A stretch of DNA of 26,666 nt from a virus, in IMG/VR virus record IMGVR_UViG_3300042475_005194, positions 1 to 26,666 of that record. The stretch is one strand, 5' to 3'. Position 1 is the first letter of the stretch. Every line of letters starts with the position of its first letter. Positions 4,131 through 26,212 of this stretch are shown piece after piece. The notes under the pieces are model-generated. The model was not told the DNA's origin. It did no database searches and saw only the letters and a program-made list of their open reading frames with translations. Made by a program: the position numbers and the translations under genes.

Positions 4131-4433
4131 ATGAACATCACCGAACAAAACCTCGCCGCCGCTCTCAAAAGCCTCAAGAAAGAGCACAAAACCAACTGGC
4201 TCGCGTTCAATGCCAAAATCGACGCGATCCTGAAAGCGATGGAAAAGCGGAGGGGCTGCACATGGAGCAGCACGGAAGACATTACGGAGCACGTCGCCAA
4301 CGAAGATTTTGCAGCGGCTGGCTTCACTCCAGCGGAAACCGAAGCACTGACCTTCGTCCTGACCGAGGACTGCATGGGGCAGGCGGTCACCAACACGGAA
4401 ATGATCGAACGCTGGTTCTGCTACTGTGCCTGA
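4131..4433 (+). CDS. hypothetical cassette protein
   Basis: A 100-residue protein that I do not recognise. The N-terminal third is a Lys/Ala-rich helix (SLKKEHKTNWLAFNAKIDAILKAMEK). The rest is acidic, with a Cys near the middle and the C-terminal sequence WFCYCA. No signal peptide is seen. It has its own promoter, a weak AAGAAG ribosome site and lower GC than the packaging genes around it, and a terminator follows the next gene. This pattern is typical of a moron, a gene added to a phage and expressed independently, sometimes from the prophage. The downstream RHH-like gene overlaps it by 8 bp. A role in lysogeny or superinfection defence is only a guess. Confidence 0.65.
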   Translation: MNITEQNLAAALKSLKKEHKTNWLAFNAKIDAILKAMEKRRGCTWSSTEDITEHVANEDFAAAGFTPAETEALTFVLTEDCMGQAVTNTEMIERWFCYCA

Positions 4434-4620
4434 GCCCGAACAATCCCGCCGGGGCCGCCCGCCGCTGCCAGACAGCGAGCGGGCGGATTCCCAAATCCAG
4501 CTCCGCGTCACGCGGAAGCGAAAAGCCGCCTACGTGCGGGCCGCAAGCCGGAAAAAGCAGACTCTTGCGGCGTGGGCTTTTGACGCTCTCGACCGGGAAT
4601 CCGGCTTCGTCTCGGAGTAG
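4426..4620 (+). CDS. ribbon-helix-helix-like small protein
   Basis: A 64-residue basic protein starting at GTG 4426 inside the end of the preceding gene. A flexible RRGRPPLPDSER arm precedes IQLRVTRKRKAAYVRAASR, which reads as a beta strand plus first helix, and LAAWAFDALDRES as the second helix. This is the usual shape of Arc/CopG/MobC-type DNA-binding proteins and antitoxins. It may repress the promoter at 4040. The upstream 100-residue protein could be its partner, but no toxin motif is recognisable. Confidence 0.55.
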   Translation: MPEPEQSRRGRPPLPDSERADSQIQLRVTRKRKAAYVRAASRKKQTLAAWAFDALDRESGFVSE

Positions 4621-20008: not shown

Positions 20009-20338
20009 ATGAGCATCATCGAATACATCATCGTCCCTCAACCCACCCCGGCAAACCTCGCCGCCGCCATCACGTCCAAAGCCACCGGCCTCGCGGCCCA
20101 GGGTCGCGCGGCATTCCCGGTCGCAAACCTCAAAGACTCGTCGCTTTTTGGAGAATCCGAGCCCGGCAACGCGGCTATCGCGGTCGTTCAGGACGAAGTG
20201 CCAAACCTCCTCGGGCTGCTGGATTACGCGCTGGGCAGCTCCGCGCCCGAAGTGAACGCAGCTATCGCCGCGCAGATTCACGCGCTGGAGGCGTTGAACG
20301 CAGCTATCGCCGCGCAGATTCACGCGCTGGAGGCGTGA
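20009..20338 (+). CDS. small protein with duplicated heptad repeat
   Basis: A 109-residue protein of unknown function. The N-terminal part (MSIIEYIIVPQPTPANLAAAI, LKDSSLFGESEPGNAAIAV) is followed by a C-terminal coiled coil made of two identical 14-residue units (NAAIAAQIHALEAL). These are coded by a perfect 42-bp tandem duplication. It lies between the fibre and lysis genes and could be a fibre-tip or chaperone protein. The stop overlaps the next GTG. Confidence 0.65.
   Translation: MSIIEYIIVPQPTPANLAAAITSKATGLAAQGRAAFPVANLKDSSLFGESEPGNAAIAVVQDEVPNLLGLLDYALGSSAPEVNAAIAAQIHALEALNAAIAAQIHALEA
20253..20336 (+). repeat. 42-bp perfect tandem duplication
   Basis: The units 20253-20294 and 20295-20336 are identical over 42 bp and keep the reading frame, each coding two heptads. 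Identity including silent positions points to a very recent duplication. The second copy runs into the stop and next start. Confidence 0.92.
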
Positions 20339-21256: not shown

Positions 21257-21871
21257 ATGGAGATCGCCAACCAATGGCTCGCCGGCGTGCCGCGCCGCGA
21301 GATCCCCGGCGGGCTCCCGATGAGCATCCGCCGCTGCCTCGTCATCCACTTCACCGCCGGGGCCACGGGTGCTTCGAGCATCGCCTTCTGGAAAACGGCC
21401 GCGGCCAAGGGAGCATGCGCGCACCTCGTCATCGAGCGCGATGGCACCGTCATCCAGTGCCGCCGATTCGACCGCACCTGCGGGCACGCCGGGGTCTCCC
21501 GCTGGCGCGACCCAAAAACCGGCACGCTCCACACCGGCGCGAACAGCTTCTCCATCGGCATCGAGCTGGCCAATGCCGGCAGCGACGACGGCGCGATCTC
21601 CTGGGCACGCAAGCAAGCCGGTTTCCGCAGCATCCACGCCCGCCACCCGAACGGCGGCCCCGTGCAGGAATGGGAAGCCTACCCCGCCGCGCAGATCGCC
21701 GCCTGCACCGCCGTGGCCAAAGTCCTCGTCGCCTGCTACCAGCTCGACGACATCACCGGCCACGACTGCATCGCCCCCGAGCGCAAGGACGATCCGGGCC
21801 CCGCCTTCCCCATGGCCGATCTCCGCGCCGCCTGCGGCTTCACCGGCCTCCCCGCCGTCCATCGCAAGTGA
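21257..21871 (+). CDS. endolysin, N-acetylmuramoyl-L-alanine amidase (amidase_2)
   Basis: A 204-residue zinc amidase of the T7-lysozyme/PGRP fold that cleaves the lactyl-peptide bond of peptidoglycan. It shows CLVIHFTAG with the first zinc ligand (His 31), SIGIELANAG, GHDCIAPERKDDPGPAF with His 169, and KDDPG supplying the catalytic Lys and last ligand (Asp 179). No signal peptide is present, so release probably depends on the holin. The start is 1 nt after the 25-residue peptide. The stop overlaps the lipoprotein GTG. Confidence 0.92.
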   Translation: MEIANQWLAGVPRREIPGGLPMSIRRCLVIHFTAGATGASSIAFWKTAAAKGACAHLVIERDGTVIQCRRFDRTCGHAGVSRWRDPKTGTLHTGANSFSIGIELANAGSDDGAISWARKQAGFRSIHARHPNGGPVQEWEAYPAAQIAACTAVAKVLVACYQLDDITGHDCIAPERKDDPGPAFPMADLRAACGFTGLPAVHRK

Positions 21872-21990
21872 GGCTCTGGCACTTCATCCTCCTGAACGCC
21901 CTCGCCGCCCTGCTCATCGCCGGCTGCGCCGCGCGGCCCGTACGCACCTGGCAGGCCGACGAGACCTGGACCCACCTAGGCCACCCCTAG
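21868..21990 (+). CDS. small lipoprotein, o-spanin candidate
   Basis: A 40-residue protein from GTG 21868 overlapping the endolysin stop (GTGA). A hydrophobic signal (ILLNALAALLIAGC) ends in a good lipobox, LIAGC, followed by 21 mature residues. Small outer-membrane lipoproteins next to endolysin genes are typical o-spanins. The mature part is short but within the range of compact o-spanins. Its partner would be the coiled-coil protein at 20335. The 3' end touches the convergent gene at 21987. Confidence 0.6.
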   Translation: MRLWHFILLNALAALLIAGCAARPVRTWQADETWTHLGHP

Positions 21991-22211
21991 CGCACCGGCT
22001 TTCCCGCCGACTTCGCCGCATGGCAGACCACGCAAGTGCCGCCCCAGCGCCGCGGCGAGCAGTAGGCGCAATGCTCGCACGTCTTGCATCCAACCGAGGG
22101 CCGGTCGCCGCCCTGGCACTTCCCCACCACCCTCTTCACCCAGGGATCCTTGCCCGGCTCTGCGGCCGCCGCGGAAAGCGCCAGCGCGAGCAGCAGCGCG
22201 AGCGGTTTCAT
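21987..22211 (-). CDS. exported Cys-rich small protein
   Basis: A 74-residue protein on the minus strand. The start at 22211 is chosen because GGAGG lies 6 nt upstream and because it overlaps the preceding stop (ATGA). A signal peptide (MKPLALLLALALSAAAA) is followed by about 57 residues with seven Cys, in the pattern CKTCEHCAYC and CVVCHA. CVVCH fits a c-type haem motif, but the closely spaced Cys pairs fit a metal site equally well. With the gene upstream it forms an exported pair antisense to the late genes, perhaps a lysogenic-conversion unit. Function unknown. Confidence 0.62.
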   Translation of the reverse strand: MKPLALLLALALSAAAAEPGKDPWVKRVVGKCQGGDRPSVGCKTCEHCAYCSPRRWGGTCVVCHAAKSAGKPVR

Positions 22212-22660
22212 TTCACCTCCGCCGCGTAGCCGTCGAGCATCCGGTCGCCAAACGCGGTCGGGCAGTTCACCGCCGCACCTTTGCGCGCCACGATCTCCAC
22301 AGGCATCCCCACCTTCAGATCCACGCCCGTCAGCCACACCAGCCCGTTGTCGCCCGGGATCGCCGTTTTCACGAGCAGCCCCGTCGCAGTGCGCTGCTGC
22401 ACCGTGCCCCGCAGGATCACCGTGCCCGCCCGGGGCCCCGGCGCAGGCGTCGCCGGGGGCAGGTATCCAGGGGGATGGCGCGTGACGACAGAAGCCGGGC
22501 GCCCCAGCCCCGTGGCAGGTCGCTCCAGAGAGGTCGCGCCCGGCTTTGAAAGAGGGTGCGGCGTGGCTGGTGGCGGCGCGGCCGGCACCGGGAGCAGTTC
22601 AGGGTTTTGCGCACTCGCGGAGAAAACCAGCGCGCTCAGGAGGATGAGGATCGTCTTCAT
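22208..22660 (-). CDS. exported Pro-rich protein
   Basis: A 150-residue protein. Start 22660 is preferred over an in-frame Met 7 codons upstream because it gives a clean signal peptide (MKTILILLSALVFSASA). A Pro-rich linker follows (about 20-70), then a compact beta-type domain (GTVILRGTVQQRTATGLLVK, GLVWLTGVDLKVGMPVEIVA), possibly OB-like. The start overlaps the end of the -1 frame extension of the RHH gene (ATGA), and its stop overlaps the next gene. Function unknown. Confidence 0.62.
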   Translation of the reverse strand: MKTILILLSALVFSASAQNPELLPVPAAPPPATPHPLSKPGATSLERPATGLGRPASVVTRHPPGYLPPATPAPGPRAGTVILRGTVQQRTATGLLVKTAIPGDNGLVWLTGVDLKVGMPVEIVARKGAAVNCPTAFGDRMLDGYAAEVK

Positions 22661-22799
22661 GACGGTCGCCAGTAGCACCATCGCCGCGAGCCGTCACGCG
22701 AAATCACCGCGACGGCCCACCCGCAGGGGCGGTCGGGATCGGTGGTGAGGAAATGAGCGAGGCGTTGAAACGCGGCGGCTAGCAGCGCTTCTTCAACGG
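22657..22799 (-). CDS. -1 frame extension of the RHH gene
   Basis: From the slippery site at 22800-22806 the -1 frame is open for 47 codons: AVEEALLAAAFQRLAHFLTT, then DPDRPCGWAVAVISRDGSRR and WCYWRPS. It stops at 22657, overlapping the next ATG as ATGA. It has no ATG, GTG or TTG of its own near its 5' end (a CTG with GAAGAAG upstream exists). Frameshifted, the RHH protein would be 151 rather than 110 residues. A homopolymer sequencing error or mutation is the main alternative. Confidence 0.5.
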
Positions 22800-23111
22800 C
22801 TTTTTTGACTGGGCCTCGCTAGCCCGCGCCTCCTCAGCAACGCGCAGCACGCTTAGGCGCTCCGTGGCGCACTCATCGGCAGTCGTGTGTTTCACCGCGC
22901 CGCCCAGCGCCGGGCGGCTCCGATTCCGCTTCGCATCGAGCATCACCACCATATCGGGAACCGTGCGCAGGGATTCGTCTTCGATCATGTCGAGCACCGC
23001 GACCACGCACTGCTCCGCAAACGCATTCGGACTCCAGTTGAGCGCCGACGCATGGGGCTTCAACCGGTCGCCGACGGCGCTGGCAATCCGCAGGTTGAGG
23101 TAGGTGGACAT
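22779..23111 (-). CDS. ribbon-helix-helix regulator
   Basis: A 110-residue protein with start 23111 chosen because the sequence before it lies in the AT-rich control region. The N-terminus MSTYLNLRIASAVGDRLKPH reads as the DNA-contacting strand and first helix of an Arc/CopG-type RHH fold, and SPNAFAEQCVVAVLDMIEDE as the second helix. A charged helical C-terminus (VAEEARASEAQSKK) runs to a slippery A AAA AAG. It is divergent from another RHH gene across a palindrome and so is likely a lysogeny or accessory-operon repressor. It leads the minus-strand exported genes. Confidence 0.65.
   Translation of the reverse strand: MSTYLNLRIASAVGDRLKPHASALNWSPNAFAEQCVVAVLDMIEDESLRTVPDMVVMLDAKRNRSRPALGGAVKHTTADECATERLSVLRVAEEARASEAQSKKPLKKRC
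22800..22806 (-). promoter_or_regulatory. A AAA AAG slippery site
   Basis: On the minus strand the zero frame reads TCA AAA AAG, the dnaX-type heptamer in correct phase. A GAGG sequence lies about 7 nt upstream and a CGTTGAA/TTCAACG stem can form just downstream, though closer than usual. It leads into the 47-codon -1 frame. Confidence 0.5.
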
Positions 23112-23197
23112 TGTGACGCAAACAACATCGCACAGACTTTTTTTAAGAAAACACAAAAAACCATTGGACATTGACGCGACATGACGCATTATGCGTC
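23112..23197. promoter_or_regulatory. divergent promoter/operator region
   Basis: An AT-rich 86-bp gap between two divergent RHH genes. ATGACGCAT-T-ATGCGTCAT (23181-23199) is a perfect 19-bp palindrome abutting the right gene start. Further TGACGC half-sites lie near 23114 and 23171. A rightward promoter may be TTGGAC (23164) with CATTAT (23187), spacing 17, so the palindrome would cover its -10. A leftward promoter is likely in the T/A-rich part but not clear. Confidence 0.7.
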
Positions 23198-23410
23198 ATG
23201 CACACGAAAAGAAGACCATCTGCTCCGCCGCAGAAATGCGAGATGCAGCCCTTGCCGGCTGCGACGGGGCGAAACAAGACGGTGGCGATTGACGAGGAGC
23301 TGCACGCGAGGCTGAAGGTCATCGCTGCGCAGGAGGGGAAGATGTTGCAGGCCCTCGTCGAATCGTTTCTCGAAAACACAGTCAAAGCCCGGGAGGAGGC
23401 CGGAGCATGA
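23198..23410 (+). CDS. ribbon-helix-helix regulator of the small-gene operon
   Basis: A 70-residue protein. ATG 23198 is favoured over TTG 23171, which would place the operator in the gene. After a basic arm (MHTKRRPSAPPQK), TVAIDEELHARLKVIAA and KMLQALVESFLENTVK give the strand-helix-helix pattern of RHH repressors and antitoxins. It begins inside the 19-bp palindrome, suggesting autoregulation. Its stop overlaps the next ATG. Confidence 0.65.
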   Translation: MHTKRRPSAPPQKCEMQPLPAATGRNKTVAIDEELHARLKVIAAQEGKMLQALVESFLENTVKAREEAGA

Positions 23411-23676
23411 GAACCCTGCCCATCGCCCTCCCGGTTTTGAAGCATCAGCTTGCCCCGGAGGAAGAGACGTTTGTCATCGCTACCTGTCAGCACTACGAGA
23501 GCGATTGGGATGCCGCCCAGTCCGGCTGGTATGTCGAGGCAAACATTCAGCATCGCCCGACGCAGGAACCCCTCGCGAAACTGCAAGCCGGACCCTTTGC
23601 CACTCGTGCGCAGGCGCTCGGCGAGCTCGCGAAGCTGCTGACCAAGATCACGACTGCGGAGGCGAAAAGAGCATGA
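23407..23676 (+). CDS. hypothetical small phage protein
   Basis: An 89-residue protein overlapping both neighbours by ATGA. The middle (FVIATCQHYESDWDAAQSGW, YVEANIQHRP) looks strand-rich and the C-terminus is helical (RAQALGELAKLLTKITT). Family not recognised. It belongs to the six-gene operon that starts at 23198. Confidence 0.6.
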   Translation: MRTLPIALPVLKHQLAPEEETFVIATCQHYESDWDAAQSGWYVEANIQHRPTQEPLAKLQAGPFATRAQALGELAKLLTKITTAEAKRA

Positions 23677-23912
23677 CCACCTCCATGGAACGCACCGTTA
23701 AGGCCGTGGCCATGCAGGCCGACGAGACGGCTTTGGCTCTCACCTTCATGCTTCGTCGGCTCGCCGAAGCCAATGACTGCGAGGCGCTGCCGCCGGATTT
23801 CCTCGAACACCAGGAGGATCTAAAAAGCGCACGCGGCACCATCGACCGCGTCTCCGCCGCCCTCCGCGCCGCCCTGCCCGCGGCGCCGCTTTTCCAACCC
23901 AAAGCCCCATGA
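23673..23912 (+). CDS. hypothetical small helical protein
   Basis: A 79-residue, mostly helical protein (ALALTFMLRRLAEANDCEAL, DLKSARGTIDRVSAALRAAL) without membrane segments. ATG 23673 overlaps the previous stop. Function unknown. Confidence 0.58.
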   Translation: MTTSMERTVKAVAMQADETALALTFMLRRLAEANDCEALPPDFLEHQEDLKSARGTIDRVSAALRAALPAAPLFQPKAP

Positions 23913-24100
23913 CACCCATGCTCAGATACATCCCCAAGACCGAATGGCAGCTCGCGAGAGAGCGCGAAAAGCGCGACTTCCGCCGAGCGAAAAAGCTGAC
24001 CCTTGTCGCCCTGGTGTGCCTTGGGTTTCTCGCCTACACCTGCGCGACATCCCCCGAGGTGGCCGACTTCGCAGCCTTTCTGGCGGAGGTATGCAAGTGA
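23909..24100 (+). CDS. small membrane protein
   Basis: A 63-residue protein with a charged N-terminal helix (QLAREREKRDFRRAKK), one membrane segment (LTLVALVCLGFLAYTC) and a short acidic tail, likely N-in. It overlaps both neighbours. It could be a superinfection-exclusion type protein, but nothing shows that directly. Confidence 0.6.
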   Translation: MTPMLRYIPKTEWQLAREREKRDFRRAKKLTLVALVCLGFLAYTCATSPEVADFAAFLAEVCK

Positions 24101-24318
24101 GAGATCGCGAGCACACCGAAACAGTCTCGCTCGCCGGGCATTTCCGGGGGACCAGCGGCTTTAGCGACGTCGCCCTCGCCCTGCGCGCGTGGGAGCAGCG
24201 CCGCGGCTACCGCGACGAAAGCGGCCTGCTCCTGTCCAGGCATTCATGGAATTCCCAAGCCTCCGCCCAGGTCGCGGAGATCGCGCAGAAGAACCGCCAG
24301 CGGAGGGCACGCGCATGA
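24097..24318 (+). CDS. hypothetical small protein
   Basis: A 73-residue protein. GTG 24097 is preferred to in-frame ATG 24091 because GGAGG (24085-24089) lies 7 nt before the GTG but only 1 nt before the ATG. The sequence has DVALALRAWEQRRGYRDESG and a basic C-terminus. Family unknown. Confidence 0.55.
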   Translation: MRDREHTETVSLAGHFRGTSGFSDVALALRAWEQRRGYRDESGLLLSRHSWNSQASAQVAEIAQKNRQRRARA

Positions 24319-24614
24319 AGGACCTTGACACGCTCGTCAACGGCAAGCAGCTCGCCGCCCTGCTCGGGCGCCACGAGACATGGGTGATCGCCATGAAAAA
24401 GGCCGGCTACGTTTTCCAATATCCCGCTTTGAAAAAGACGACCCTCCGACACGCGCTCAAGGCTTTGTCGCGCGCCCCTTCTTTCGTCGCCGACTACTAC
24501 CAGCGGAAGGGCTGGGAGACGGACCCACGCTGCACAGCGTGTTTAGCAGATCGTCCGCGTCCGAAGAATTCAACCGCCGGTAAATCCGATTCACCAGCTC
24601 CGTATGCCCGATAA
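24315..24614 (+). CDS. HTH protein, excisionase candidate
   Basis: A 99-residue protein. NGKQLAALLGRHETWVIAMK and KAGYVFQYPALKKTTLRHAL form a MerR/AlpA-like helix-turn-helix followed by a wing, the usual shape of phage excisionases and small recombination directionality factors. The C-terminus is disordered. Its last 158 bp overlap, in opposite direction, the end of the integrase gene. Context next to the integrase supports a role in excision; a transcriptional role is also possible. Confidence 0.6.
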   Translation: MKDLDTLVNGKQLAALLGRHETWVIAMKKAGYVFQYPALKKTTLRHALKALSRAPSFVADYYQRKGWETDPRCTACLADRPRPKNSTAGKSDSPAPYAR

Positions 24615-25536
24615 ACGCACACACCTTTGCCGTCGAGTGCCCGGCCCGCAGCAGCCGCGTCACGACCGTCACGCGTGCGCAGTGCGCGGAGTAGGGCAGA
24701 CCCAGCTTGGCAAAGAAATTGCACCAAGCCGCGCCCGCGCTCGGGGCCGGCTCGATGAGGGTCGCGCGCTTTTCCAGCCGTGCCCGCTCGATGAGCGGCA
24801 GCAGCTCGGGATGGAGCGCCGCGGTGTGCAGCTTCCCGCCCTTCAACCGAAAGGTGATCTTCCGCCGCTCCGTGTCGATGCGATCGAGCGGGACCAGCGT
24901 CTCAGTCAGCCGGCACCCCTGGCGCATGAGGACGAGGAACTGCTCGCCCATCCACCGGGGCTCCCGCTCCAGGGCCGCGAGGATTTTCACCTCATCCCCG
25001 GCTGTGATCTCCGCCTTTTCCTTTGGCGGGCGTTTCCGCAGCTCCACCTCCCGGCATGGATTCCCCGGTGCGAAGCCGCGCCGCACCGCCTCCGCCATCA
25101 GCACCCGGAAAAAGACGAAGCGCAACACCGCCGTATTGTGGCCCACGGCCCGCAGCGTCTCGCCACTGACGCGCCAGGGCACAAAGCCCTCCGCGTCCGC
25201 GTAAGTGACCATCCGCGGCGTCCGCAGCCCGCGCTCGCGGAAGTAGGCCATCAGATCCATGAGCCCGTATTTTGCGCTCAGCACACTCCCCTTTGCCCCG
25301 GCGTAGCGCCGCGCAAAGTAATCCGCCGCCCACGCCTCCCATCGCTCCGGCTCGGCCACGGCCGGCGCGGCCATTTCCCGCTGAGTGTGCTCGGCCTCGA
25401 TGCGCTTGGCCTTTCGACGGCCATCGACTGCCCGCTGATCGATCCCCGTGGATTGCCGCCGCACGAGCCCGGTCGCCGGATCGCGAAACTTCACCCACCA
25501 GAATCGGCTTTTTTTGCGGAGATAGACGCTCGCCAT
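24457..25536 (-). CDS. tyrosine recombinase (phage integrase)
   Basis: A 359-residue site-specific recombinase. Start 25536 is taken because MASVYLRKKSRFWWVKFRDP is the usual N-terminal arm-binding beginning. A SAM-like core-binding domain spans about 60-165 and the catalytic domain about 180-335. Catalytic residues are all visible: Arg 209 (RQGCRLTE), Lys 235 (LKGGK), His 285 and Arg 288 (HCAR), His 311 (FIGH) and Tyr 319 (RIYRRL). A basic tail follows. It should integrate and, with the HTH protein, excise the phage. Confidence 0.93.
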   Translation of the reverse strand: MASVYLRKKSRFWWVKFRDPATGLVRRQSTGIDQRAVDGRRKAKRIEAEHTQREMAAPAVAEPERWEAWAADYFARRYAGAKGSVLSAKYGLMDLMAYFRERGLRTPRMVTYADAEGFVPWRVSGETLRAVGHNTAVLRFVFFRVLMAEAVRRGFAPGNPCREVELRKRPPKEKAEITAGDEVKILAALEREPRWMGEQFLVLMRQGCRLTETLVPLDRIDTERRKITFRLKGGKLHTAALHPELLPLIERARLEKRATLIEPAPSAGAAWCNFFAKLGLPYSAHCARVTVVTRLLRAGHSTAKVCAFIGHTELVNRIYRRLNSSDADDLLNTLCSVGPSPSPSAGSSRRRKKGRATKP

Positions 25537-25547
25537 GCCGTCTGCAA

Positions 25548-25708
25548 TGTGCCCGCCTGTGCCCAAAGTCAACAACTCAACCCAACCCCACCCAAACCCG
25601 CGCCAGCGTTCCCGCATCGCCTTTATCTTATGAGATTCCTACCGTTACAACCAGTATTACGCGGCGTAAGAGGTAGGCGGGCCGGTGTGCCCTGTGGTGT
25701 GCCCAAAG
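25548..25708. other. candidate attP/integrase-binding region
   Basis: TGTGCCC-N3-TGTGCCCAAAG (25548-25568) and TGTGCCC-N5-TGTGCCCAAAG (25686-25708) are paired direct repeats about 138 bp apart. Between them lie the palindrome TTACGC-G-GCGTAA (25657-25669), nested within CCTACC/GGTAGG (25638-25677). Repeats flanking a dyad upstream of an integrase fit arm- and core-type sites, though the exact core is unknown. Confidence 0.5.
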
Positions 25709-26008
25709 GAGGGGTGGAATGAGTGCCGCGCGGGGGGCTGGCCTGAGTCCTCGAATGAGGCGGGCGAGAAATAGGGAGTGGTCTTGTGCCGCGGTGTCTT
25801 TGGTGACGGCGGCGGAGAGGCATAGGGACCAGGCGAGGAGGGCTCTTCCAAAGGATCGGAAGCACTGGCTGGCCGGGATGAGGGCGCTGGCCTTAGACGC
25901 GCGGCGGTGGCCTATGTGGCGCAACCGTCAGGTGGAACTGCCGCTGGGGGATTGGATGCCGATGCCCGAACCGCCGAGCGAAAAAGGAGGGGTGGAATGA
26001 GTGCCGCG
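25705..26008 (+). repeat. 26-bp repeat carrying ribosome site and start codon
   Basis: AAAGGAGGGGTGGAATGAGTGCCGCG occurs at 25705-25730 and again at 25983-26008, each time supplying the Shine-Dalgarno sequence, ATG and first codons of a gene. A diverged third copy lies at about 26196-26218. Adjacent protein ends share WMPMPEPPSEKGGVE. Confidence 0.85.
25719..26000 (+). CDS. hypothetical protein with DUF551-like C-terminus
   Basis: A 93-residue protein with a strong GGAGGGG ribosome site. The N-terminal 65 residues are Arg/Ala-rich and helical (LVTAAERHRDQARRALPKDR, KHWLAGMRALALDARRW) and not recognised. The last residues (DWMPMPEPPSEKGGVE) match the end of the next protein almost exactly, so the gene looks like a recombination product that captured a DUF551-type end. 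It overlaps the next ATG. Confidence 0.6.
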   Translation: MSAARGAGLSPRMRRARNREWSCAAVSLVTAAERHRDQARRALPKDRKHWLAGMRALALDARRWPMWRNRQVELPLGDWMPMPEPPSEKGGVE

Positions 26009-26212
26009 GGGGGCGATGGATGGACGCGCTGCGCGGATGCGCTGCCCGACTCCGATCTGACGGTGATGATTCACCACCCGGAAGAGGACGAGCCGGTGTG
26101 GGTGGGCTATCACGACGGTAAGAGGTGGCGCACCGCCGAAGGGGTGCGCGTGGCGGTCACGCATTGGATGCCCATGCCGGAGCCGCCGAGCGAAAAAGGA
26201 GGTGTGGAGTGA
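25997..26212 (+). CDS. DUF551-like phage protein
   Basis: A 71-residue protein matching the pattern of the DUF551 family common in phages: GWTRCADALPDSDLTVMIHH near the start, VWVGYHDGKRWRTAEG in the middle and VTHWMPMPEPP at the end. The molecular function of the family is not established to my knowledge. It starts from the repeated GGAGGGG site and its stop overlaps the next GTG. Confidence 0.75.
   Translation: MSAAGGDGWTRCADALPDSDLTVMIHHPEEDEPVWVGYHDGKRWRTAEGVRVAVTHWMPMPEPPSEKGGVE

Follow-up and report, generated by a model that had tools for sequence, protein, structure and literature searches.

Genes and sites in the divergent region

Two short genes that are read away from each other, with a common control gap between them, lie at 22779–23410 in the window, by which we mean the whole stretch of DNA analyzed (a viral contig, 26,666 bases long). 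The features on which the analysis rests are the following.

21257–21871, + strand: endolysin gene (Amidase_2, Pfam E 2e-24), used as bait for related phages
22779–23111, − strand: gene encoding the larger of the two divergent proteins, of 110 amino acids, the proposed CI-like lysogeny repressor (coding GC, weak RHH matches, position as in relatives)
23112–23197: common control gap, 86 bp, 41% GC in a record of 66% GC
23114–23119, + strand: TGACGC half-site adjoining the start of the − gene (clustering p = 5e-5)
23165–23192, + strand: promoter-like site of the + gene, TGGACA-16-CATTAT, with TGGACA at 23165 and the −10 within the palindrome
23172–23177, + strand: TGACGC half-site that precedes the left half-site of the palindrome by 10 bp (clustering p = 5e-5)
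23180–23200, no strand: candidate operator, the palindrome CATGACGCAT-T-ATGCGTCATG (exact repeat; arm length p = 0.001)
23198–23410, + strand: gene for a small RHH protein, 70 amino acids, the proposed Cro-like partner (Pfam, PHROG, leave-out HMM)
23407–23676, 23673–23912, 23909–24100, 24094–24318, and 24315–24614, + strand: a proposed early operon of five short ORFs that overlap one another and follow the small RHH gene
24457–25617, − strand: tyrosine integrase gene (PHROG_1 integrase, E 7e-17; PF00589, E 7e-5, under the cut-off)

Terminase and portal genes were recognized in this phage along with that for the endolysin. The five ORFs at 23407–24614 gave no informative match in Pfam or PHROGs, and no toxin or antirepressor family was found among them. 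A sister record (G001, 26,935 bases) overlaps the window in a different order. Because it contains approximately 5 kb of replication genes, primase-like and others (L006:840–5860), that fall between the window's end and start and are missing from the window, the window shows only part of the genome. Relatives of the endolysin that are 55–62% identical occur in genomes labeled Chthoniobacterales, Opitutae, and Verrucomicrobiaceae, and on that basis the host is probably a bacterium of the Verrucomicrobiota.

RHH assignment of the two proteins

In codon-position GC the two genes (0.65/0.47/0.82 and 0.63/0.44/0.74) resemble other genes of the phage, those for terminase, portal, and integrase, and the − gene is clearly coding. 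The + gene is read here from the ATG at 23198, which gives a gap of 86 bp, inside the 71–90 bp found in relatives; a TTG at 23171 is an alternative start.

The sequence-only reading took both products for RHH regulators, and the two fared differently. For the 70-residue + protein the assignment is fair. Its Pfam and PHROG matches were weak (E 4e-4 to 3e-3) and spread over several RHH families, with FitA-like_RHH at E 3.7e-4 and ParG at 9.7e-4, both under the Pfam cut-offs. When 528 ORFs from the phage and two sister records were searched with a leave-out HMM, an RHH profile built without the window sequences, this protein was the top distinct locus (E 0.0056), and by sequence profile it falls in the RHH (MetJ/Arc/CopG) superfamily. 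The 110-residue − protein is no more than a candidate RHH protein on sequence: its best Pfam match was HicB (E 0.052, below the cut-off), and its N-terminus, YLNLRI...NAFAEQ, is compatible with the RHH pattern. The leave-out HMM gave no match to it among the 528 ORFs. When 158 entries were ranked with hhalign, it came out as the second distinct locus, in full register over the domain but at 5% probability. Single-sequence AlphaFold models, made without alignments, were helical or low in confidence, with no ribbon visible.

The description of the pair as Arc-type applies only if the term is taken broadly to mean the RHH fold. It does not extend to the family itself, because the Arc family of Pfam gave no match, the PHROG annotated 'Arc-like' matched only at E 0.003, no antirepressor was found, and the solved sequences nearest to the RHH profile were CopG (E 3e-5) and ORF56 (E 4e-5). 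CopG and ORF56 are plasmid-borne regulators; they resemble the window proteins in this proximity to the profile and differ in not forming a divergent phage pair.

Profile hits also included the FitA-like, ParG, RelB-like, and HicB RHH families, and the RHH antitoxins VapB26 and RelB are among the solved relatives, as might be seen if the window encoded one or two autoregulated RHH antitoxins of a toxin-antitoxin system. We regard that explanation as very improbable, since no toxin family of Pfam or PHROGs adjoins either gene, and a 97% identical phage (G002) has kept the small RHH gene though the gene behind it is different. Divergent RHH genes with common operators would, moreover, be an unusual layout for a toxin-antitoxin system.

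Palindrome, half-sites, and promoter-like site in the control gap

A palindrome noted earlier in this region, ATGACGCAT-T-ATGCGTCAT, proved to be exact at 23181–23199, with zero mismatches, and to continue for one more base in each arm, giving the 21-bp palindrome with 10-bp arms listed above. As had been claimed, it covers the start of one RHH gene, namely the ATG at 23198 of the + gene. Its arm length was evaluated with 2000 dinucleotide shuffles of the gap plus 12 bases on each side; in the whole window, three palindromes with arms of at least 9 and a spacer of at most 1 were observed and 0.55 were expected. The additional TGACGC half-sites of the sequence-only reading were found as well, with four copies within 23112–23200 (p = 5e-5, 20,000 shuffles). 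Because the whole window has 17 copies of TGACGC against an expectation of 22, what is unusual about this sequence is its clustering. The window has one palindrome plus half-sites, whereas several relatives have two spaced operators.

The promoter-like site of the + gene was the sole one found in 22600–23700, compared with 0.1 in shuffles. If the promoter is real, its transcript would begin at about the ATG at 23198. Divergent regulator genes and a predicted operator over a promoter-like site are present in the window in silico. The palindrome was also considered as an RNA hairpin or terminator, and this was rejected: it can fold as RNA (z −1.87), but the sole nearby terminator-like site lies elsewhere, at 23219–23234 on the − strand, where it is no more than expected by chance.

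Divergent pairs in related phages

Related phages were collected by way of the endolysin, and 50 endolysin-bearing records were scanned with a profile made from 12 RHH domains drawn from six of these record groups. Two RHH matches were obtained in 13 of the 50 records, a count that is for the most part not independent because those six groups supplied the profile; the two genes were always divergent, with the − gene to the left of the + gene. Three further records had a single RHH match. G035, which had not contributed to the profile, was an independent find (E 1.7e-8 and 8e-6). The start-to-start gap was 71–90 bp in 16 of 17 measured pairs, the exception being L129 (121 bp), for which the start is uncertain. 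Searches with the window RHH proteins and integrase returned two close records only, the farther relatives having come through the endolysin, and positions 22600–25700 had no nucleotide match in 50,697 phage records. In L070, which has the closest endolysin after the sister record (82%), no RHH pair was found and no integrase was matched, though one small ORF standing alone looks RHH-like by eye.

Inverted repeats with p values of 0.0005 to 0.05 by the perfect-arm test were present in eight of 12 gaps: those of the window, L014, L117, L025, L019, L148, L153, and L155. Those in the gaps of L015, L017, L108, and L129 were not significant by this test. L014 has ACAAAGTTAACTTTGT beside one RHH gene and AGTTAACTTTGATAACAAAGTTAACT beside the other. 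The repeat in L019, TGTAATGCA-C-TGCATTACA, is 19 bp long with a one-base center, the form seen in the window.

When the motifs of 18 gaps were compared with the ribbons of the corresponding proteins, they sorted into blocks by ribbon type, with a single count off-block (GTAGTC, once, in L025). The ribbon KPIPIALP accompanies ATATA-type sites in L015, L016, L018, L017, L108, and L025; GTTAAC sites are common to L014 and L117; G369 and G589, which have the same ribbon, have GTAACTG-like sites; and G659, with the ribbon VSAPLRL, has GTAGTC-n5-GACTAC. In L014/L117 and in L015/L016/L018 the rest of the gap is also similar, so that shared descent explains part of the match between motif and ribbon in those groups. 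G035 and G304 have the ribbon VSAPIRM in common and an operator identical at 21 of 21 positions, although in the 51 bp upstream of the operator they match at only 16 of 51 positions.

Replacement of the regulatory cassette

Between L014 and L015, identity is 92% as far as the middle of the left RHH gene; approximately 500 bp without any blastn match follow, after which identity is 99% over 1472 bp. The unmatched block takes in the part of the left gene that encodes the DNA-binding half, together with the gap and all of the small RHH gene. The same pattern of replacement was found between L015 and L017, and the left proteins of five phages differ in the RHH half while being nearly invariant in the C-terminal half. 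L025 has an L015-type left protein and operators, followed by a gene for 67 amino acids and then an L017-type small RHH gene; because the L015-type left protein and operators were kept together, the operator in this phage goes with the left protein. Block replacement of this kind is what an exchange of immunity specificity would look like.

Integrase association and the search for other repressors

Integrase (PF00589) was found in 10 of 13 pair-bearing records and in 8 of 36 pair-less ones (p = 0.0008), absences being soft because the records are fragments. There are thus eight integrase-bearing records without the RHH pair. G002, which begins inside the pair, was omitted from this count. Two more pair-bearing records have an integrase, L014 as judged by PHROGs and L117 as judged by DNA similarity to that of L014. 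With near copies dropped, the integrase was present in 5 of 8 pair-bearing records (p = 0.04) or in 7 of 8 (p = 0.001).

The earlier observation that no CI-like or Cro-like HTH repressor is seen nearby stands as far as it was tested: HTH_3 and S24 were unmatched in the window record and in the sister record G001, and the scan for other repressor families covered part of the window ORFs.

This result bears on a possible parallel with phage P22, whose divergent mnt and arc encode the nearest known pair. Two sources describe Mnt and Arc as short repressors that act on a single control region, with immI doing no more than modulate a lysogeny that is set by C2 (PMC7549136, PMC11016777). The window pair might likewise be a secondary module, with two RHH repressors controlling an accessory lytic function and another, unrecognized repressor holding lysogeny. 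The likeness would consist of two short putative RHH repressors with a common control region and a bearing on lysogeny, the window's − protein being a weak RHH candidate. G011 (L019) also fits this explanation: its HTH_3 gene is approximately 1.2 kb from the integrase domain and its RHH pair approximately 10 kb away, so that the RHH pair there may be secondary. We consider a module of this type unlikely for the window. In P22 the antirepressor Ant is under the control of immI, which ranks below C2, whereas the window and G001 were unmatched by HTH_3 and S24, the ORFs that follow the small RHH gene contained no antirepressor-like family, and the window yielded neither an Ant-like gene nor an HTH repressor of the C2 kind. 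Some relatives of the window phage differ further in fusing RHH to S24; in G035 the left RHH protein itself bears the S24 domain of a primary repressor.

RHH-S24 fusions at the same position

The left protein of G035 has an RHH domain followed by a Peptidase_S24 domain (E 2.5e-12). Ala91-Gly92 lies ahead of Ser121 and Lys162, a placement like that in LexA-type autoproteases. The RHH half of this fusion is 40% identical to the left protein of L015 (E 6e-12); between the small partners in G035 and L015, identity is 42% (E 2e-8). Two bacterial genomes, G304 and G360, also have an RHH-S24 gene opposite a small divergent RHH gene (S24 E 1.3e-11 and 6.9e-8), and the Ala-Gly, Ser, and Lys are invariant across the three fusions. 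The fusion gene in G360 comes after an integrase gene that begins 75 bases past a tRNA-Gly gene, and this copy is placed as in an integrated element. A fourth fusion was identified with a fusion profile in G581, opposite a small RHH ORF (E 0.0058). The G304, G360, and G581 genomes belong to sets sampled from the phylum or class that includes a Verrucomicrobiaceae genome.

A survey of genomes of the phylum gave a match in 11 of 387, and the loci were examined in five of them (G304, G369, G360, G371, and G287). A survey of the class gave a match in 24 of 384 genomes, mostly over the S24 part alone; the stretches examined were those in G581, G231, G659, G589, and G369 and second loci in G360 and G304. 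A divergent RHH partner was present in G304, G360, G581, G659, and G369, and by eye only in G287; G589 had none in the stretch examined. The left proteins of G659, G369, and G589 are shorter and without S24, and the window form is therefore not alone in that respect. The RHH-S24 protein of G035 had no tblastn match in the 50,697 phage records, and each window protein, when compared with one fusion-bearing relative, gave no alignment.

These fusions also bear on what the pair controls. Leftward of the left gene comes an ORF (22208–22681) that looks exported by eye, and the divergent pair could control only the leftward genes (21987–22681) or early gene dosage, without a role in lysogeny. The integrase association across records, the presence of RHH-S24 at the same position in relatives, and the cassette replacement all argue against this explanation, which we regard as very improbable.

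A proposed RHH lysis-lysogeny switch

We think it likely that the two genes form a lysis-lysogeny switch in a temperate phage whose host is probably in the Verrucomicrobiota, and that this switch resembles CI/Cro with RHH in place of HTH. The suggestion of a lysogeny switch, made originally from the window sequence, is well supported by the comparison, through the divergent layout in 13 of 50 records, the link with integrase, the cassette replacement, the RHH-S24 fusions, and the ribbon-matched operators. Several observations count against it. The RHH nature of the left window protein is uncertain, and that protein is without an S24 domain; neither window protein aligned with its fusion-bearing relative; the window has a single palindrome with half-sites; the inverted repeats of four relatives are not significant alone; the single-sequence models show no ribbon; the HTH_3 gene of G011 is nearer to the integrase than the RHH pair is; and eight integrase-bearing records lack the pair.

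In the proposed switch, RHH dimers would insert their ribbon into TGACGCA half-sites of the 86-bp gap. The leftward-read 110-residue protein would be the lysogeny repressor; on the palindrome it would cover the −10 of the rightward promoter and so silence the small RHH gene together with the early genes behind it. The 70-residue protein would act as a Cro-like partner at the same sites, shutting its own promoter and, at the half-site adjoining the left gene, turning off the promoter of the repressor. The roles were assigned in this way because of the S24 fusion in relatives. We infer the binding in the window, the promoter that each protein represses, and, the window having no S24 domain, the mode of induction of this phage.

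More generally, we lean toward the view that Verrucomicrobiota phages have a complete immunity system parallel to CI/Cro, with RHH on both sides and including an SOS-type RHH-S24 repressor. A cassette swap of the repressor's RHH half, the gap, and the Cro-like gene would change the immunity type, and the window would be the minimal, S24-less form.

Comparison with known systems

Its fold places the pair outside the lambda family, and its gene content places it outside P22 immI. It shares with lambda-type CI/Cro systems the divergent and unequal proteins, the palindromic site over the rightward promoter, the nearby integrase, and the replacement of cassettes, and in four relatives of the window phage also an S24 domain on the larger protein. 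It differs in that the DNA-binding domain is RHH rather than HTH; neither HTH DNA-binding domains nor an S24 autoprotease, both lambda-type features, were found in the window, and the window protein is without S24. The likeness to LexA/S24 repressors is in the S24 domain with its Ala-Gly and Ser/Lys positions in G035, G304, and G360, G581 matching the fusion profile. S24 regulators are described with an N-terminal HTH in one source (PMC13148647), whereas the N-terminus here is RHH. In SP-beta, MrpR is the master repressor. A passage of another source (PMC10516654) describes YosL as a predicted Arc-type RHH protein with a possible role in prophage control and does not present it as half of a divergent RHH pair. 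Searches of the open-access literature, as judged by titles and the beginnings of abstracts, found no RHH-S24 repressor and no divergent RHH lysogeny switch of Verrucomicrobiota phages.

If the proposed switch is real, the logic of CI/Cro would have been rebuilt on a second DNA-binding fold, and lysogeny would become recognizable in phages without a detectable CI. The natural series of matched ribbons and operators provides material on how RHH proteins read DNA.

Additional observations

Three S24 repressors in Verrucomicrobiota genomes, L183:1341–2720 (−), L184:1089–1919 (−), and L185:580–1464 (+), have an S24 part close to that of the RHH-S24 proteins, and two of the genomes also carry RHH-S24. 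By eye, the N-terminal region combines an HTH-like part with an RHH-like stretch after it, and these are perhaps three-part repressors.

Within the window, a small ORF between the terminase and portal genes (4426–4620, +) appears RHH-like by eye, and a similar ORF in L025 (3583–3801, reversed strand) adjoins the left RHH gene. Two successive ORFs at 25719–26212 (+) share the terminal peptide MPMPEPPSEKGGVE, and DUF551 is the identity of the second (E 2.4e-10); approximately 246 bp at 25737–25982 are absent from the sister record. The leftward ORFs behind the left RHH gene (21987–22681, −) appear by eye to be exported, one of them being cysteine-rich with a CVVCH motif, and are possible lysogenic-conversion genes. 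A perfect 42-bp tandem duplication lies within an ORF at 20253–20336.
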